Part shown: positions 2,455 to 55,399 of the stretch, piece by piece
How positions within the stretch are numbered: position 1 is the first letter of the stretch
Layout: every line of letters begins with the position of its first letter
DNA from: Glandiceps talaboti
Taxonomy: Eukaryota; Hemichordata; Enteropneusta; Spengelidae
Direction: 5' to 3'
NCBI RefSeq assembly: GCF_964340395.1
Contig: NC_135556.1
Coordinates: 12,773,410-12,837,409 of the forward strand
DNA length: 64,000 nt
Position numbers and translations under genes: made by a program
Notes under the pieces: generated by a model
The model's input: only the letters and a program-made list of their open reading frames with translations
The model's database searches: none
What the model was told of the DNA's origin: nothing

Positions 2455-3334
2455 TAATAATAATATAATAATAATTTATTTATAAAGCGTCAGTATCCAC
2501 AAAAAATGTGATCAAAGGCGCTGTAAGCAAATCATACAATACAAATATCAGTTAAAAAGCAGTTTTAAAAAGTAAAGTTTTAACATTGGATTTAAAAGCA
2601 GATAAGGTAGGTGACTGACGGATGTTGAGTGGGAGATTATTCCAGAGAGTGGGAGCAGCAACACTAAAAGCACGATCACCATATGTCTTAGTATGTGATC
2701 GAATGGGGCAGAGTTTGAATTGATCAGCTGACCTTAAATTACGACGTGGAACATATAGTTCTATCATGCCAGAAAGATAAATTGGTCCAAGCCTATGAAT
2801 GGATTTAAAAATAAGAACTAAAATCTTAAAAACAATACGTTCAGAAACAGGTAACCAATGCAACTTATATAAAAGTGGAGTGATGTGAAAGGTGATTTTG
2901 GAACGAGTTACAATTCTAGCAGCAATATTTTGAATACGTTGAATACGGTTGATTAGGTACTTCGGAAGCCCAAATAAAAGTGAATTACACGAATCTATTC
3001 GAGATGTAATGAATGCATGAACTAATTGCTCAGTAGCAGGTTGAGATAAATATTTGCGGATAAGCGCAATACAACGCAAATGAAAAGTGGCAGAACGGCA
3101 GATCTGTCCAATATGTGGCTTCATTGTCAGACAAGAGTCAAGGATCACTCCAAGGCTCTTGGCCTGACAATGGACGGGAATCAGAGCATCGCCAACACGA
3201 ATTTCTGTAATCGCTCTAGTGGACAGATCACCTGAAGTAGCAGAAAAAATAACAAATTCAGTCTTATCATCATTCAAACACAAGAAATTTCCAAACACAT
3301 TCAAACACAAGAAACTTGTACCATTATGCTGCAT
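2455..3334 (-). mobile_element. CR1/L2-like LINE, 5'-truncated, reverse transcriptase C-terminal part
   Basis: The minus-strand frame 3334-2552 (260 residues) is the end of a non-LTR retrotransposon ORF2. It begins just before the NDDKTEF block that follows the catalytic YADD motif, then shows SLGVILDSCLTMKPHI, the thumb region with FITSRIDSCNSLLFGLP, QRIQNIAARIVTRS, HWLPVSERIVFKIL and the terminal TYGDRAFSVAAPTLWNNLPL block. The first residues (repeated FLCLN) look like a small internal duplication. Downstream on the same strand is a short 3' UTR ending in a TTTATAAATAAATTATTATT-like tail (2480-2455), as in CR1/L2-type elements. Finger and palm domains and endonuclease are missing, so the copy cannot move by itself. 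Confidence 0.85.
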
Positions 3335-3339
3335 AACAG

Positions 3340-5080
3340 TATGAGTGCTGATATGATAATGCCCTAATAGCCAGACTATAAGTGTATACTTTGTATCACG
3401 TTCTTCCTGTAGAGATGATCAGAATAGATTGATAAGATTTGGTTTCATATTATGTGAATAATTATTCATAGAAATAGTGCAGTATGTTATAGCTATGATC
3501 ACATGATTTGTCGTACACGAATAGTTGAAAAGTACCAGGACATCCAACTATTTATATATCAAATGAAAATTCATACTCACAGGAATCAACAAATTGTTCA
3601 TATGAATCTCATTTTTTTTACTGAATTGAAGTCTGGGGTGTACATGATCTACAAAGGAATTCTTCCAAAAAAATATTTTATCTCTGTGAGTAATAACTTT
3701 CACTGTTAGCTATGAAACCCAGAGTCCATGAACACCCTTTCTTGTATTTATATCTAATATTTTTTGTGCATTTCAGAATCCTACCTGTAGATGCTTATCT
3801 ACATATGTTGAAGTACTCTGGAGCCTTTGGTATGATGGATAACTTTGTTGGAAGACAGAAAAGGGATTAGTAATACTGACTAATTCGATATTATTCACCA
3901 ATATATGTCTTCGTTCAGCAAAGGAAAATGCGAGTGACCTAAGGGGCCCTTGTCACTACGAATCACTAGACAAGTAGTGACAACCCTTAGATCATGAGTA
4001 TTGTCCAGCGGAATGAAGGAAAATATTGGGGAATAATATAATTATACCATCCCCAGTAATATGAAAAAAAAGTCGGGGAAAGTATGGCAATTTTGATTCA
4101 TATTTCAAACACAGTAGAACCAATGATGTAGACACGCATTGTTGTGACAGACGCACATTGTCATGACGTAGAACGACCAGACTAGATATATCATATTTTT
4201 GTTGAACCTTGCTCGTGCATGGTATAATGTACACTATTCAAATGACGAATTTGATCTGCAATTTATGGATATATTCCACCAGAAGTTGTACTTTGGGACC
4301 AAGATTAAGATATTTCATCAACAAAAAGAAACAAATACAGTATCGATATTTGTACCTGTGTACTGTGTTGTAGTACTTAGATGAAGCATTGATTTTTTTT
4401 CGTGAAAGGCATCATCGTGATATAAAATTTATATATCTAAATGTATAGTTATAGATATAGATATGGAATATATATATATATATAATTCTAGATAATGTGC
4501 CACCAAATTCACAGTTGTACTTATCAAGAGAGATGCAAATATTTCTTTTTTTGTTAACAAAGGGTTATTTTTTTCACAAAGTTGTTATCCAAGAAGTTTC
4601 TTGTAAAGAAACCACTCAGATTCAGTTACAGGGCAACAATGGTAGAGGGACTGTAGGTAAACAAATAACGACACAAACTAAAACTATTATTGTGATGTTG
4701 AGATTAGTCTGGATGCCAACATGGTTTCTAACTAAACCACGTCTGGTCAAAGTCCCTCAATCAGCACAAAAAGTTATTCATCCAATCAGTGAACCCCAAC
4801 TGTTACAGTGACGTAAACAGTGTATTAGTAGCCTCCCGAGCTGACAAATATACCATATTTAGACATTACATAACTGTCCCAATAAACACTAACTTTATGA
4901 GGGACTGTGTTATTGGTTAGAATTTTGTGATTGATTAACAAAGACATAATTTTAATGACTGTGTGGGTGGCCGTGGATGAATTTTATATTGCATCTCGTG
5001 CATCTCATGCACCTTAGGACTTCTAGAGTAACAACTTTGACTATACCGTGAGTGGAGGTGTAAATCGTAACGATACCGTA
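3340..5080. other. Non-coding, no recognisable gene
   Basis: Only short open frames without family resemblance. A small TA-rich simple repeat lies at about 4437-4485. Nothing else is supported. Confidence 0.5.
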
Positions 5081-8128: not shown

Positions 8129-11100
8129 ATGACGATGTACGTCAACAAACGAGGTACGTTCGACTTTATGATATCACTAACATGCCTTTTATAGCAAACT
8201 ATATCAATATATCATCTTACCAATGTATTTATATGAAAAGTTTTTTGTGTCTAGTCTACTCAACATTTCCCTCCACATTTTGTCTCGTTCAAGATGGCCG
8301 TCAGGAGAAGGTTATGTTCGACAAAATCACGTCCAGAATATCAAAATTGTGTTACAGTCTGAACAGCGAGTTTGTTGACCCGGTGAGTATAGGTTCTTAT
8401 CTATTCTGTAAGTTATAATTTTGAGTGGCATATGGAACTGTTAATTGATTTGGGTGAAGGTGTGAAAAAGGCGCCAAAATTGAAAACAAACCAATAATGA
8501 CACACGAAGAAGCAAAGTCAAACACTGACAGATATATTGAGACTTTTAGCGTACAGTATGGAAAACAGAAATGGACTGAAGGAAACCAGCGAAAGGCCAA
8601 TTTTATGCTCATGTATGTGACTTGTTTTTCATTTTCTGGTAATATGCGTAGCCATTTCTATGGTGGCGAGCTTTATAAATTTCCCGGGAAATTAAACTTG
8701 TTCTGTTGACATGTAAACCATAGTTAGACATTATGGCGGTGAAACTTCGTTTGCTACGAAATAATACTAAACTAACAACTTTATCAGGCATATGAGTAAA
8801 CAGTGAAACACGACAGAAGAAAATGTACCGTTATGTTGCTATCCTTATATTGTGAAAGACAACATATTCTTTTGTTTTGTGTACCATTGTTGGAACAGCT
8901 GTTAGTGTGAAAGATGGCGGGAAATACGAGTATCTGCCTTTTGTCCTCGATTCAAGGGCAATCCCAAATTTTGACGATATCATGATAACTGCCGCCAGAA
9001 TTCAGGTTTTGCAGCGAGAAGAAAAAAAAATATATTCCATGTTTTTTTTAGGTAATTGTTGGAATAAAAACTTTGTGATAGTAACAACCAGAAAGTTAGA
9101 AACAAAACACCCGACCCTGTAGCAAGTGTTGGGTCAAGGTATAAGACAGTCACAGTGGAGTAAATAGTATCCTATATGTATATCCAGATTTAGAGTTGAA
9201 GATGAATTTTCTTTTGCATTTTAAATGAAAAAGCATTTACAGACTTTTTGAGTTATAGAAACTTCATAAGTTTGTAAATATGTCCTATCAAAGTTCTATC
9301 AAAGTCCTATCAAAGTTAATGGGCCATCCCATGACCTCATTAAAAAAATAGAACTAAAGCTACAGGGTATACAGGAAACTGCAATTCTACAAAAAATTCC
9401 CCTCTGTGTTAGTGTTACCATTCTTTTTCCGCAGCAAAACACTATACTCTCATTTCAGCCGTCAATGACATTCTTGTGTGTTGACACATCTAGCAAACTA
9501 TCTCACATAGTAAGTCAGTCAGCAATGTACTACCATATGGTTTTGATAGCTATCATGTACAAAGATAGGTCCAGGGCATATTTCACATCTCGACTTTTTT
9601 CATGTTATAAATACTCAGTAGCTCAAGTTTACATGGAAATGTAGATCTCAATAACACAAAACTCATACATTATTATGTGTGTTTGCAGGCTGCCATCACC
9701 ATGAAGGTAATAACTGGTGTCTATCCAGGTGTAACCACAGTTGAACTTGACACTTTGGCATCAGAGACTGCAGCTAGCATGACCACCAAACATCCTGACT
9801 ATGCTGTCCTTGCAGCAAGAATTGCAGTATCAAATCTCCACAAAGAAACAACCAAGTTATTCACTTGTGAGTACACAAACCACACAACATAGCTGTGTTT
9901 CTGTTGACTTTTTTAATGGCCAGGCTGTTGCTCCCAGATTCAAACATCATTAGTTTTATCTTATCAGTGAATTCATATCAATTAATTAGGATCATTCATT
10001 TGTTTTGGATCAGCCATAGACCCTCCACCAACCTTTTCTATGCCTCTGCCAGACAAAATGTTCACACCTACATTTTACATCCTAATCAGTGTTTTATTTA
10101 AGGGCGGTAAGTAGGTAAAATCTACCGGGGTTCCCCACCTAAACTATGATACATTGCATGGGAAGCACTACCAGTTTTACCTCTTTCTCCCTTTCTGTTA
10201 CCAGGGTTCCCAAACCTTAGCAAAAACACTGCTGAACATGTGAACTGGGCCTTTGACAACTACAGGGAATTTACATCTAGGTTATTTAGCAGTCACCAGT
10301 GTGCCCTCTAACAAAAGCCAACTTTTGTTGTTGTGAGTCAAAATGAGAAAAACTGGTATTTCTTGTGAGTCACCACATAGTAAGAGATGGGGGACCACCA
10401 AATATTGGTGTGTCACTAGAAATTGTGTGCGTCAGTGGCGCGTCAAATTGGCTTAGAGGGCACACTGGCAGTCACTGAGTGTAATTGTGAAGTTTTGATT
10501 TAAAATTATATCTGCTTTGAACAATAATAAATATTCTGTACTCAAGCCTTAGTTCAAGATGTTTGTTCATAAGTTACACTACAGCCTATAAATTTCAAAT
10601 ACCATTCTATAATGTATTTGATGCAAAAGTACCTCCTGCCAGGCTGATGCAGAAAAGTTGATCAGTGTAATTAAAGTCGCAGTGTTCTTGTATGTAGATT
10701 GATTACAATTGGATCATGTCATTTTTGTATTTCCACCTCTCGACTCATGATTTCACTGAATCTTTGGCCAGCAGGTGATTTGTTATTAACAACTCTCGTC
10801 TAACATGGATAAGATCTTAAATAAGTATGTTCTCATCATTGGGAAATAGATTTAATTTCTTTCTCGTATATCAATGTAATTTATCAAAGTTTTATGCTCC
10901 TCATCCTGGTAAATTTGATATGTGACAGTAAAAGTTTTGTAGTCTTTCTTAGTTTAATTTGATTATACTGTTGTGCATATTTTAGCTGTGATGACGGAAC
11001 TGTACGAGTATGTGAATCCCAGGAATGGAAAACACTCACCGATGATCTCAAAGGAGGTGTATGATATCATCATAAACAATGGAGAGGTGAGTACAAAGAT

Positions 11101-17000: not shown

Positions 17001-20000
17001 GCAAGTTGATTGTGTAAGGTGATGCTAACAGAGTTCATTCATACTTAACAGGCTCGCAACAGTAACATGCGTCATCGGCCAATTGGTATCGGTGTACAGG
17101 GTCTAGCTGATGCGTTCATTCTGATGAGATATCCATTTGATAGTCCTGAGGCTCAGCATCTGAATAAACAGATCTTTGAGACAATCTATTACGGTGCCTT
17201 GAAAGCCAGTTGTGAACTTGCAAAGGAACAAGGTCATTATGAAACATATGAAGGCTCACCAGTCAGCAAAGGAGTAAGTAATAAATGATGCCTTGTTCAA
17301 CTAACGTGTATATAGAAAGTTGAAAATAATTGCACTGAAAATGTACAGATTTATTCCCGAGATAAGTAGTTGCTAGTGTAGTAATGGTAAGAATACAAAA
17401 TGAATTATTGTAATTAATGGAAGTACAAAGAAAAAATACACTACAATGGTATCAATACACCTTAGGCTGGTTATAGGAAAGACAAAAGATTTCATGGTTT
17501 GGCCACTAGGAGTGCTGTTTGCAAGCTGTCTTGGGGCCAGAAGTAAGGATAATATACCCAAAAGTCATTCTAACTTGAGTCAATCCTAGCCATTATAGAG
17601 TATTTGGTTGTAATGCACAACATTAATTTACCCAATAATAATAAGCTCTTCTGTTATGCAAATTAAGTATCAGATTTTAGACTAAGAAAACCACACTAGG
17701 GTATAAACCAGATGTACAGACCAGATGTAGTCATGTACAGGTGTGACAATGTTTGGCTATGCATAATTTTGCCCTTGAACCGTACACTGCATTTATCAAA
17801 ACAATTCTATGGAAAAATTGCATTTGAATTCCCCAAGTTTGAGATGGTTTTTTCACAGAACGTACTGTATTCTTAGGGTTTTTGTGTATGTTTTGCGTTG
17901 TGAGGTAAAAAATCCCGTATTTTTTTCTCCCTTTCCAGATTCTACAGCAGGACATGTGGGGTGTAACACCAACAGATTTGCATGATTGGGATGCTCTGAA
18001 GAAAGACATTGCCAAATATGGAGTTAGGAATAGTTTGTTGATGGCTCCCATGCCAACCGCTTCTACAGCACAGATCCTTGGAAATAATGAAGCAATTGAA
18101 CCATACACTAGTAACATCTACTCAAGGAGGGTATTGTCTGGAGAATTTCAGGTGTGTAAAGTTGGTCGAGATATGTTATTCCCAATGTTTTTCTTAAATG
18201 AGGGTGCTATCTGGAGAATATTTTCCGACAACAACGAAAGATATTGGGGGATTACATAATCATGCCCCTCAAATACAATTTATTAAACATTTGTAAAAAC
18301 CATGACAATCTAATATCCCTTGATTCTGTATTGAGTGCATCTGCTTCCCATTCTACAGTTCATGACATTATTCATATTGTCGATAATTTTAATGAAATCT
18401 AAATGAACTTGTTGATTGAGGAATAGTCTTTTTTTTTAATGCAAGTGTTTATGCGTCTCTTTCTACAGGTGGTAAATCACCATCTCCTCAACGACTTGAC
18501 AGAACTTGGTCTGTGGAATGATGATACAAAGAATATGTTGATTGCCAACAATGGATCTATCCAGGTAATCTTTGAATACATTCCTAAGTATTGCTAAATA
18601 AGTTGATGAAAACGTGATTGTTTTACTTGCATTGTATACAGTAATGGAAAAAACTTGGTGGGGGTTAGACATTTCGATAGAAAGTTACTCTAAAGACGAA
18701 TGGTAGAACACGTCAGCAAAAAATGACATGGTTTGCCTTAAAACATCAGAATTTTGTTTTGGGAACCTCCCAGTAAAGTGACTGGGCAACTCGGATTTCA
18801 CAGACCCACCATCTTTATCAAAAAATACTGAATTTTTCATTTTCCTGACATGAAAGTGATAGTACCAATTGATTTCTCTTGCCCATTTTATACTAGGTGC
18901 AAAAGCTGCTGGTTGCCAAAATGCACAATTTGTTATATTTGTATCTTAGACTTCAGCATCTACGTAACAAGGAAAGAAAAGGGTCATTCGAGATTTGTAT
19001 TGAGATTGAAATCTGGTATTCAATTCGCTAAAATGGTTTATATACTCTCTCAAGGCCCAAAGTAGAATTTGGATAAATTGTTTTGAAAAAAAAACTTGTA
19101 TATAGGTACTAAAGGCTATAGAACAGAGTAAAGAAGAATATCAGGAGATGAAATGATGATACGGTGTACGTTTGGGGGTGGAATGGTAACAGAACCTGAA
19201 GAAAGGTTTCATAGCTGGTGGATATTCACTTATTCCTTGCACAATGCCAGAATGGAATCTCTTACCTTTAGCCATTCAACAATCAAAGACAACAGACAGT
19301 TTCAAATCTGCCCTCTCCAGCATTGATATAACCGATCTCATAGCTCGTGCTCACCTGAAGACGAGCGAGATCTGAAGGACGCCGCCAATGTGATGATAAT
19401 CCTTTTTAGATGTTTACACAGTATAGAAGTAGAAGATAAGAGATACAGAGCAGTGACTTCATAGTTTTATCTGTGTGTTTTACAGGACATTGAGGGTATA
19501 CCAGAAGACATCAAGATGTTGTACAGGACAGTTTGGGAGATATCTCAGAAGAACATTATCAACATGGCAGCAGATAGAGGAGCTTTTATTGACCAGAGTC
19601 AGTCACTTAACATACACATAGCTGAACCTAACTATGGCAAACTATCCAGTATGCACTTCTATGCCTGGAATAAGGTAAGAATCTCTATGGGAATTTGTCT
19701 TTTACACAATTGACTGTGAGGGCGCTGTTATGAGTTTTTTTCCACTAAGTTGTGTAATGTGCTTTTTCTGATTCAACGCAACAATTTACTCTAAAACAGC
19801 ATATGAAAGCATGGTGCCATCTGGGTCGATACATCTGTCGGGGGGGGGGGGGGGCATAATCTTGGCCACTTATGATTTTAGATACAAACTTCTCCAAAGC
19901 ATTGAAAGACACACCCACCAACCAACCCACCTTTTCATAACATTACACTTCTATGTGTTTGAGAGGCACAGACTTCTGGTTTGTCTATTTTAGAATAAAT

Positions 20001-46769: not shown

Positions 46770-46899
46770 TAGAAGGCAGGCCACGTTGAATCACATCTGA
46801 CACCACACGCTTACGAGTAACAAGGCACTCTCAGCAATATCATCGACATCTATTCCGACTACGCTCCTCTGAACATTACGCCAGTAATATCGCCACAAG

Positions 46900-47502
46900 A
46901 TGTGCAACAAAGAAAACATACGATGCGACTTCAGCCTGTTGACGGAACAACCAATGCCTGGCAGTGAGACGAAATGTGGTACGCTTGCCGTGAGTCAACC
47001 CGGACAGCCTAGCCGTCAACGGCGACTCGTCGTGAGAGTGCACGGTAAGGCAATAGACCCGTTCGTTGTCTTCTACCAAGACAAGAAGTTCTGCAATTCG
47101 TGTGGCTTTCTAAAGCTCCGTAACTGCCGAATGGCGAAACAAGACCGCCAAAGCTTCGTGATCAGTCCGAAGAACGGCGATGGCAGACCGCTCCATCTTA
47201 CGGCAGAGAGTCAAGCAGACAGGGACGATTGGGTAGCAGCGCTACAAGCAACGCCGCTATCACCTCTCCGATCTGCGACGAGCATACTACCTAGTCTAGA
47301 GGAACTACAGGAAGAAGAAGAAGAGTGGCTGGACGACGAGGAAGTTGACTGCAAAAGAGCGAGCGATTGTCTGAAAACAAACTGCAGAAGGAAATCTACA
47401 GAAATCAGGAAAGCTAATCTGACAAATCACGGAACTGGTCTTAACAGATGTGCATTCGGTAGGTTACAGAGACTAGCTGACCCTCCAAGAGGGCAAGAAT
47501 AG
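46900..47502 (+). CDS. Small PH-domain protein, apparently intronless
   Basis: 200 residues. Residues about 26-118 read as a complete pleckstrin-homology domain: first strand CGTLAVSQ, basic strand RQRRLVVRVHGK, FVVFYQDKKF, GFLKLRNCRM, SFVISPKNGDGRPLHLTAES and the C-terminal helix with the near-invariant tryptophan W111 in RDDWVAALQ. PH domains bind phosphoinositides or proteins and commonly bring their host to membranes. An acidic patch follows (residues 137-150, EEEEEEWLDDEE-like) and the tail is basic and cysteine-rich. GC content is clearly above the surrounding DNA, as expected for coding sequence. No splice sites interrupt the frame; a TATA box precedes it. Ligand and orthologue are not identified: it could be a PHLDA-like stand-alone PH protein, or the first exon of a larger gene. 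Confidence 0.8.
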   Translation: MCNKENIRCDFSLLTEQPMPGSETKCGTLAVSQPGQPSRQRRLVVRVHGKAIDPFVVFYQDKKFCNSCGFLKLRNCRMAKQDRQSFVISPKNGDGRPLHLTAESQADRDDWVAALQATPLSPLRSATSILPSLEELQEEEEEWLDDEEVDCKRASDCLKTNCRRKSTEIRKANLTNHGTGLNRCAFGRLQRLADPPRGQE

Positions 47503-51876: not shown

Positions 51877-51882
51877 TTTATT
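51877..51882 (-). terminator. RPL21 poly(A) signal
   Basis: AATAAA on the minus strand, about 29 bases after the RPL21 stop codon. The resulting very short 3' UTR is normal for ribosomal protein genes. Confidence 0.7.
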
Positions 51883-51910
51883 TCTGTAATTCCCAGTTTT
51901 TCATACACTT

Positions 51911-53950
51911 TTATGCAATAAATTCATATGGAATTGGCTCGAAAAGCACTGGCTTGTTGTGTTTTGTCCTCACAAAGTGTCCAGGGCGAGGCTGTTCTGG
52001 CTGTAAAACAGAAATATCAAAATAACATTATGGTACTTGTAGAGAATGAATCTACTAATTATGGTATTCAGAAACTAATAATATGCATATTGTCTATGGA
52101 AATAGCAATGTAATGTTGTCAGTTGTATCTAATATACAAAACAAAATTCTTAATTTCACTTCTATGATATTAGCCTTAGATATAAATTTATTTGACTTAT
52201 TCAAAGCTTGATTGATCCCTTTCTGTCGTATGTGATAAAGACTAAGTGCTGTGTAACGAGGCAAAGTCACAAAAAAACCTATTTGTAACCAGTGAGGGTA
52301 CACCATACAATGGGATTGGAGTAGACAAATAGCTGCTTGGTCACACAAAGTAGATATATAGACACTTTGGTGACACCGATGAGGGCTGTGGGAATGGCTA
52401 TACTTGTCTCAAGGGGTGAAGATAGTACTTGTGATTGCACCAGTCTGTATGATATGACATGGCATGCTTTGCCTATCAGCTAGCACTCGCATGAAAGGGG
52501 TATTGCCCAATGTAGTTAATGTATGAGGGCGCTCTGTCATGGTATACCTTAGCGTGAAAGGGGTTGGCTGATGAGGGTGCCCCATCACAGCATACCTTGG
52601 AGACTATAATTGCACCTACCTGTCTCTTCAAATTGATTTTGACTCCCTTCTCCTTAGCCTGTTTCTTCTTTTCTTCATTTTCCTTCACCCTTTTCAAGAA
52701 ATCGTCTCTGCATTTTGAATGTCTAACATGCTCAATTCGAACATTGATTCTTTTGGGCATAATACGATTCCTAGAATGAAGTAGGTAGAAATGGAGAAAG
52801 ACCAAAAAAAAAGGAGAAGTTAGTGAATTTGAGGGAAAATCCCTGGCAGTCTAATGGCTTTCAAGTGGTAATCTCTGGAGGGTCCTAAATTGACTGCTGG
52901 CCACTGACTTGACCACTTAGCAGATGAGGAGGCTTGGCAGGAAGAGGGTTAAACATACAGAACTGATGACACTAAGATGTACATCTTTATTGGGTGAATC
53001 ATTCTCCAACTGTTAGCCAACTGTGATCTCAATCTGGAAAAGTCATTGGCACTGCCTCTCGAGAGTTTCATGCCATTTAGATTACCTTGAGTATTACCAA
53101 TATGATCTGTTTTGTCATGACATGGTAGCAGCTCAGACATCCAAGGAAGGAATTTTCCCATCACTGAGACTGAAATCTCTTTGGTGGAAACTGCGAATGT
53201 TTTGGAATGTTTTTCATCATCGCAACTACCAATGGCAGACATAAGAACATATTTTTTGATATTTGGGAAACTAAGCTGTTCTTTTTTTTTATCCATAGTT
53301 CAGGGGGTAGGTTAATGTTTTCTTCAATGTTACATACCTGACTTGCTTGTTGACAATGATACCAACTGCATGAGGAGTAACATTGTACACTCTGCCTGTT
53401 TTGCCATGGTATGATTTGTGGGGCATACCTTTTTGTTGGGCACCAGTACCCTACATAGGAGACAGTACATAGATGATCATTAATATCATAGCAAGACACG
53501 TTTTGCCTCTAAATAAAAAAATTCTGTGGAGGAATCGTAATTCTGGTATGACTTCATGGTATTGTTTTTTTTCCTGTCATTTTTGACAACAGTTTACTTC
53601 CAAACAGAACACATCAGTCCAAGTTGACAGTACAGTTAGTTTGCTTTAGAGTAAATTATTGCATAAAAACATCAAATGCTAGGCGATTTTTGAAGTTAGT
53701 GTTTCAAAAGTACCTAAATCATGTTATGCATATATGTCATGAGAATGTAGGTAAATTATAAAGAAAATGTCTAAAATTGCAAGAAGTAAATGAGTGACAA
53801 GAACACACATATTACCTTTATGTCAACAATGTCTCCTCTTTTGTAAAGTTTCATATAAGTTGACAAGAGGAAAGGACCCTTCTTACGGAAGTCCCTGGAG
53901 AACATGTACCTGGTACCACGTCGGTACCCATTTGTGTTGGTCTTCACCAT
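51911..53950 (-). CDS. RPL21: 60S ribosomal protein L21 (eL21), complete, four coding exons
   Basis: Component of the large cytosolic ribosomal subunit. Coding exons on the minus strand: 53950-53816, 53450-53338, 52770-52620, 52000-51911. All introns are GT-AG and the phases agree, giving 162 residues (human 160). The N-terminus reads [19 protein letters not shown], then [65 protein letters not shown] and [16 protein letters not shown]. It ends [10 protein letters not shown], close to the human PIPYEFMA. The last exon is only 29 codons. An untranslated first exon with a pyrimidine tract is proposed at 55135-55102, and the ATG exon starts at 53959 after a good acceptor (TTTTATTTTATTAG). The third intron-exon interval (53337-52771) carries U14 snoRNA on the same strand. 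The gene is divergent from USP12/46. Confidence 0.97.
52279..52332 (-). other. Stable hairpin in last RPL21 intron
   Basis: CTATTTGT (52279-52286) pairs exactly with ACAAATAG (52325-52332). It lies in the intron between coding exons 3 and 4, where snoRNAs may be hosted. It could be one arm of an H/ACA RNA, but no convincing second hairpin or H box was found. Confidence 0.2.
53124..53230 (-). ncRNA. SNORD14: U14 (SNORD14) box C/D snoRNA in an RPL21 intron
   Basis: On the minus strand, box C ATGATGA (53220-53214) and box D CTGA (53136-53133) are enclosed by a terminal stem: GGTAG at 53230-53226 pairs with CTACC at 53128-53124, with further pairs inside. Between them lie both conserved U14 regions. 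Domain A, CATTCGCAGTTTC, is complementary to GAAACTGCGAATG near the 5' end of 18S rRNA. The guide directly before box D, CCTTCCTTGGATGT, is complementary to ACATCCAAGGAAGG of 18S rRNA. The fifth base before box D pairs with the C equivalent to yeast C414 / human C462, the known U14 methylation target. A box C'-like GTGATGG lies between. U14 also acts in early 18S rRNA processing. It would be released from the spliced intron. Confidence 0.9.
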
Positions 53951-54028
53951 GATGAAAAACTAATAAAATAAAACAAATATATAAAGTCTGGTTAGGGAGT
54001 CTGAAGATGTCAGAGACTACGCTGATGG

Positions 54029-54283: not shown

Positions 54284-55101
54284 CTTACATGGAACTGTTG
54301 GTATATTAAAGTCACATCATTATCAACCCTTCTAATCCAGAGACATTCGAACTGTCACTGACTTAGCGGCGATAATTGTAGCTTTCGTTGTGGATTTGAA
54401 TTGTCACCCCCCCCCCCTGTTTTTTGCTTTTATTCTGTTTCGATGTTTAACTGTTCATTTTCCAGTTAAACATCAGAAATAAAAAACCTCAAATCCACAA
54501 CGAACACTACAATTATTGCAACTATCACAGACTATGCTTCAGTTTACAATGAATTCATACCCGACTTCAAAACAAACCCGCCAATACTCCTACTATAAGA
54601 TGTCATTTCCAGAAAGGTGGATATAAATATATAACACATCGACAGGATAGTTGTACAAGTCGATAAACTAAAACAGACATATGTAATGATATATTTGCAA
54701 CCTAACCTTTTACATCTCTCCCAAGTTTTATTGAAGGTTGGTAGAATTTCATTTATTATGGTTTTGGCAATATTTTTATTTTAATCAGTTGCTCTAACGA
54801 AAAACAATAAACGCCATATGTTGAGTGTTCATGTTAGTCAACGAATTAGGCTACTATTTAGTGAGTACTGCGTTGGTATGATTATCGGTGACCATGTCAC
54901 CATGTGCTCTGTACCAACGTTACGTTCAGTTACCGATACGGCACTTTACCACAACGTGAAACTTTACTGAACAATGACGTTTAATAATCGCTTGGATTCT
55001 GGACCACAACCTTAAGTAACGCTCGGACAAGGAATTATTCCAATGTGTACGGCCCTGTCGTATTAATTTAAGCTCGAAATTTGTGTCATGTGTGGCTGTA
55101 C

Positions 55102-55135
55102 CTTATAAAATGGCGGACACCGAGGAAAGAGAAAG
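55102..55135 (-). promoter_or_regulatory. RPL21: Proposed RPL21 first exon with TOP-like start
   Basis: On the minus strand a C followed by a pyrimidine run (CTTTCTCTTTCCTC, 55135-55122) is followed by GTCCGCCATTTTAT, a YY1-like GCCAT box, and then AAG|GTACAG, a possible donor at 55101. Start in a pyrimidine tract with a YY1-type element just downstream is the usual design of animal ribosomal protein genes and couples translation to growth signals. The opposite strand shows a short ATGGCGGACACC frame, which I read as the reverse of this exon rather than a coding start. Confidence 0.5.
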
Positions 55136-55399
55136 ATGGAGATGTCACGTGATCAAAGTATGGGTTCCTTTTTTTCGAAATCAACCAAATTTTATAACTT
55201 CGATATGGCCATTTCCATTAACATTTGTGTTTGGTAGACGAAAGTTATGTAAAATAATTCATAAATCAGATCTTTACATAAAAGATGTGTGACATTCTGT
55301 TTCCCATCATGCTTAGCGCAAATAAGGTTATGATGGCGGCGCAAATTATATTGAAGCAATGAGCTGTCCTGCACAGTCTGTTAATAGCTGTATAAAAAC

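Follow-up and report, generated by a model that had tools for sequence, protein, structure and literature searches.

U14 lies in the third intron of RPL21

RPS13 is a host gene of the U14 snoRNA in vertebrates. According to the excerpted parts of two reports, U14 is also carried by HSPA8, in introns 5, 6 and 8 of the chicken gene (PMC2653536) and with three copies in the human, mouse and rat hsc70 genes (PMC7277114), in line with what the original prediction had said of HSPA8. The finding of a U14-like sequence within RPL21 in the hemichordate acorn worm Glandiceps talaboti thus raises the question of whether it is a genuine U14 gene, whether RPL21 is an ancestral host or one into which U14 has moved, and whether the gene is likely to work there. 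We addressed this in a stretch of 64,000 nucleotides of contig NC_135556.1 (C9 hereafter; positions 12773410-12837409), which we refer to as the window, and in the whole assembly.

By searching both strands of the window with Rfam, we found a single match above its gathering score, RF00016 (U14, SNORD14), at 53225-53129 of the minus strand. It spans the complete model (positions 1-111) with 77.1 bits for a gathering score of 64 (E = 5.4e-15), and we regard the assignment to the SNORD14 family as certain. At relaxed thresholds, snoZ157 and snoR13 also overlapped U14 itself, with weaker scores that fall under their cut-offs. Box C (ATGATGA) and box D (CTGA) were located by their motifs at 53220-53214 and 53136-53133, respectively, and a putative box C' (TGATGG, 53158-53163) was read by eye from the sequence. 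When the external closing stem is included, as indicated by the Rfam match, the flank duplex and the fold, the gene extends over 53123-53231 (minus strand). The flank duplex has an energy of -19.0 kcal/mol, which was equalled in 3 of 1000 flank shuffles and in 1 of 500 in a separate run, and the fold of U14 together with its closing stem gave a z of -2.15 (100 shuffles).

U14 is described as acting in 18S rRNA processing and methylation in the part of PMC7277114 considered here, and a table in PMC3511168, seen as an extract, lists it with Cm462 and Cm414. Two elements of the Glandiceps gene match this double role. First, domain A (53183-53199), the pre-rRNA processing element that pairs with the 5' part of 18S rRNA, includes a 13-nt element, CATTCGCAGTTTC, at 53199-53187, that is perfectly complementary to an 18S segment. 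Second, the domain B guide (53137-53150) is itself a 14-nt perfect complement, CCTTCCTTGGATGT, at 53150-53137, and its G at 53141, the fifth base before box D, lies opposite the C equivalent to human C462 and yeast C414. Both 18S segments used for this pairing are generic conserved 18S sequence rather than that of Glandiceps itself. The length of 14 nt is likewise given for the U14 duplex in the extract of the chicken table (PMC2653536). In the whole assembly, an exact 21-base 18S pattern had no match and a 22-base pattern with up to two mismatches had one match versus one in the control; since neither pattern rose above control level, the assembly may lack rDNA. All the predicted parts of the gene were thus recovered: a full-length covariance-model match for the U14 identity, boxes C and D, a closing stem reaching 53231 and 53123, and both complementarities, judged against the generic 18S segments. 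The predicted limits, 53124-53230, were correct within one base at each end.

The host gene could be reconstructed on the same strand as U14. Exon 1 (55102-55140), read by eye, is 5' UTR with a pyrimidine-rich start and is followed by a GTACAG donor at 55101. The coding part is distributed over exon 2 (53816-53959, start codon at 53950), exon 3 (53338-53450), exon 4 (52620-52770) and exon 5 (51877-52000, coding to 51911, with AATAAA at 51882-51877), all on the minus strand. Once joined, the four coding exons yield a 162-aa eL21 protein (PF01157, E = 3e-45) that is 100% identical to the NCBI entry "large ribosomal subunit protein eL21-like [Glandiceps talaboti]", the next named relative being that of Ptychodera flava (89% identical). 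U14 lies within intron 3 (53337-52771, 567 nt), which has GT and AG ends and whose removal restores the annotated protein. Thus, the predicted housing of U14 in an RPL21 intron holds, the intron being spliced and the gene intact. RPL21 has four matches in the 590-Mb assembly, all at one locus, and its assignment as U14 host is firm.

Using Rfam at relaxed thresholds, we looked in the RPL21 introns for snoRNAs other than U14 and obtained only sub-cut-off matches; away from U14, the host intron has one of them, sR32 on the opposite strand (16.4 bits for a cut-off of 40, E = 0.034). Neither U102 nor ACA27 had an Rfam match in the Glandiceps RPL21 region. Two simple screens carry little weight here: one for H/ACA snoRNAs, run with no control, returned candidates in introns 1, 2 and 4 and none in intron 3, and one for C/D snoRNAs missed U14 itself. 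Intron 1 also contains a long imperfect inverted repeat (window 54364-54523), perhaps a small transposon remnant, with an Rfam miRNA match no better than E = 0.14. Elsewhere, the window holds ribonucleotide reductase large subunit exons at 9611-9892 and 17909-18259 of the plus strand (ATP-cone and Ribonuc_red_lgC matches), a PH-domain open frame at 46888-47502, plus strand (PF00169, E = 1.6e-6), and a 288-aa open frame at 2552-3418, minus strand, which to the eye looks like the terminal part of a LINE reverse transcriptase and had no Pfam match. In viral or prokaryotic collections, 30 pattern matches to RPL21 in viral_contigs yielded none that was confirmed, U14 patterns had no match in viral_contigs or genome_contigs, and an 18S pattern had none in viral_contigs.

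Four further U14 copies form a snoRNA cluster on the same contig

By searching the genome with RF00016, we found five U14 matches, all above the cut-off, with the RPL21 copy scoring highest. Scoring covered 120 of the 9631 first-look candidates, so this number is a lower bound, and Glandiceps has at least five U14 copies. The other four score 69.6-71.4 bits and lie within 2.4 kb at C9:14743749-14746117 (minus strand), on the same contig and strand as the RPL21 copy and 1.9 Mb away from it. In the 49.5 kb around them, Rfam at gathering scores reported these four U14 genes and no more. The cluster also contains three near-identical C/D snoRNA copies that resemble SNORD12/SNORD106, with scores of 29.4-30.9 bits that stay under the cut-off of 43 (E = 0.0021-0.0056), and as a whole it covers C9:14743349-14746117 (L006:4350-7118, minus strand).

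Reading the cluster by eye, we could place seven exons between and after the snoRNAs, all preceded by AG and six of them followed by GT. The six inferred introns hold one snoRNA each, three U14 and three SNORD12-like, and the fourth U14 is upstream of the first inferred exon. When joined, the seven exons have stops in all three frames. As far as can be judged from such a layout, the simplest reading is that the four U14 and the SNORD12-like copies belong to a non-coding snoRNA host gene.

Three further features were noticed around these sequences. A fourth SNORD12-like copy, 99% identical, stands alone at C9:14470172-14470272 (plus strand). At L006:7859-7939 (minus strand) there is a further likely C/D snoRNA, whose closing stem looks long by eye and whose best Rfam match is snoZ159/U59 at 25.1 bits, under the cut-off of 39. 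Upstream of the cluster and on the opposite strand, a 568-aa open frame starts that looks lipid-kinase-like by eye only (L008:210-1913, plus strand).

We also looked at the genes that host U14 in vertebrates. RPS13 gave three matches on contig C18 (residues 24-151; the first 23 residues were not located), and the 8 kb around them contained no U14. For the HSP70 family, none of 47 matches lies within 5 Mb of a U14 match, the nearest one on C9 being at 20.79 Mb, and the two best are each an uninterrupted open frame, 640 and 645 aa long. HSPA8 and RPS13 were rejected as hosts of the four other U14 copies, as there was no U14 match at the RPS13 or HSP70-family loci. Hosting of the vertebrate type, in HSPA8 or RPS13, was thus not found in Glandiceps at the loci covered.

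How U14 may have come to reside in RPL21

All five U14 copies carry the same two 18S elements. Over the 89 columns aligned from box C to box D, any two copies differ at 2-5. The RPL21 copy has private bases, e.g. CAGTGATGG where all four cluster copies have CGGTGATGG. The original prediction offered movement or an ancestral arrangement, a pair of options that leaves out hardly any possible history. One explanation is that U14 moved into RPL21 in the hemichordate lineage, from the cluster or from a host that has since been lost. Several observations point this way: the similarity between the RPL21 copy and the cluster stops at the snoRNA ends, both loci share a contig and a strand, and intronic snoRNA hosts are described as unstable across eukaryotes (PMC3511168). 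However, the usual traces of an insertion were not seen, in that there is no run of more than four A within 150 nt downstream and the 60-nt flanks have no direct repeat above chance (5 nt; 993 of 1000 shuffles had one as long). Moreover, 4-5 differences separate the RPL21 copy from those of the cluster, and up to 5 separate the latter from one another, so that the direction of a move is unreadable. We see this explanation as evenly poised.

Alternatively, RPL21 could be an ancestral U14 host, of deuterostome age or older, that was kept here and lost in vertebrates. The gene does carry other snoRNAs in vertebrates, as the original prediction had it: the partial chicken table gives U102 in intron 3 and ACA27 in intron 4 (PMC2653536), and an extract of a human table has ACA27 under RPL21 (PMC6466398). 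RPL21 would thus be a recurrent host gene, and the chicken U102 intron is also number 3, a match by numbering alone. Against an ancestral arrangement, U14 was not seen in RPL21 of any other species among the matches listed, in collections with few animal sequences. We consider the ancestral arrangement unlikely. Because similarity stops at the snoRNA ends and intronic hosts are reported to be unstable, movement is weakly favored over it.

We found no report of U14 in RPL21 among the matches listed in the openly licensed literature (titles and starts of abstracts), which is not proof of novelty. RPL21 is not named as a host in the extracts of vertebrate U14 reports, and those of the chicken survey give U14 and RPL21 separate assignments (PMC2653536); two other listed papers that contain both terms make no connection between them. 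Three SNORD14 loci are reported for a tunicate in a paper that does not use the term "host gene" (PMC5006418), and PMC3412847, PMC3349704 and PMC8178906 make no mention of U14.

The RPL21 copy as a probable working U14 gene

The features of its sequence make it very probable that the RPL21 copy works as a U14 gene, carried along as a passenger by intron 3 of the single RPL21 locus. Splicing, debranching, protection by C/D proteins and exonuclease trimming make up the established pathway for intronic snoRNAs. Along these lines, U14 would be co-transcribed as part of the RPL21 pre-mRNA and released when intron 3 is spliced and debranched, C/D proteins bound to its boxes would shield it, and exonucleases would trim the remaining intron. 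In the mature snoRNA, domain A would pair with 18S pre-rRNA for early processing while domain B would guide 2'-O-methylation of the cytidine equivalent to C462/C414. A U14 function of the RPL21 copy is likely on these grounds.

The two loci differ in how U14 is placed in its intron. In the cluster, box D is separated from the AG of the 3' splice site by 83, 83, 103 and 82 nt (splice sites inferred by eye), and the flank duplexes are weak, with -5.9, -5.8, -3.6 and -7.5 kcal/mol, values equalled in 209-817 of 1000 shuffles. In RPL21 the distance is 362 nt and the stem is the strongest of the five, although the shuffle mean for its flanks (-8.7) is also lower than those of the cluster (-4.3 to -5.8). 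Since the RPL21 copy is so far from the 3' splice site, assembly of the C/D particle is probably aided by the strong external stem rather than by proximity to that site. In a part of PMC10234308 that cites Hirose and Steitz 2001, the terminal stem is said to compensate often when the branch point is more than 40-50 nt away from a C/D snoRNA; the same extract states that most expressed human C/D and H/ACA snoRNAs are at least 100 nt from this point. A strong stem is not confined to long distances, as the SNORD12-like copies have stems of -16.6 to -20.0 at 85-99 nt. These layouts fit the idea that a stem makes up for distance, in a suggestive way, from five copies and a pattern noticed post hoc.

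A more tentative proposal, which we would not go so far as to favor, is that Glandiceps makes U14 by two routes: the cluster copies, with their weak stems, would depend on lying close to the 3' splice site, and the RPL21 copy would be freed from this position by its strong stem. The second route would couple some of the U14 supply to the transcription of a ribosomal protein gene. If true, nature would have set up both sides of the distance-or-stem rule for comparison in one genome. With five near-identical copies in two intron layouts, the roles of splice-site distance and external stem can be tested within one species.

The four full-length copies of the cluster could also supply the cellular U14 and leave the RPL21 copy as a silent duplicate, given that one copy could then be lost without harm. 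The position of the RPL21 copy, 362 nt from the 3' splice site compared to 82-103 nt for the others, would agree with this. Yet the same copy combines the top covariance score and the strongest closing stem of the five with intact boxes and guides, and its host is a ribosomal protein gene, which makes silence quite improbable. Finally, the least credible reading is that the intronic U14 acts in cis on the splicing of RPL21, in the way reported for SNORD2 and EIF4A2. Interactions with the host transcript are reported for about 30% of the snoRNAs detected in human (PMC10324135). However, the 354 nt of intron 3 that follow U14 do not exceed shuffled sequence in stability (z of 0.80; -0.04 to 2.05 over eight sliding pieces).

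Comparison with known U14 genes and snoRNA hosts

The U14 RNA described here is ordinary, and the finding leaves the accepted view of U14 function unchanged; what is new is the address in RPL21 and the genome-wide picture. Like other members of the SNORD14 family, the RPL21 copy has a match over the full model, boxes C and D, both 18S elements and a closing stem. It differs from the Rfam consensus by a shorter center (97 nt for 111 positions) and from the family by its host gene, RPL21.

We liken the cluster to the GAS5-type non-coding multi-snoRNA host genes. It has in common with them short exons with stops in all frames and one snoRNA per inferred intron, and differs in that U14 alternates with a SNORD12-like partner and in that the exons were inferred by eye.

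As in vertebrate HSPA8/hsc70, U14 is intronic in Glandiceps and present in several copies per genome, whereas no U14 match coincides with an HSP70-family match. This hemichordate distribution, split between RPL21 and an apparently non-coding host with none at RPS13 or HSP70, should be useful for dating the host switches of U14 in deuterostomes. With the vertebrate snoRNAs U102 (SNORD102) and ACA27 (SNORA27), Glandiceps U14 shares the same host gene, RPL21, but it is a different snoRNA.
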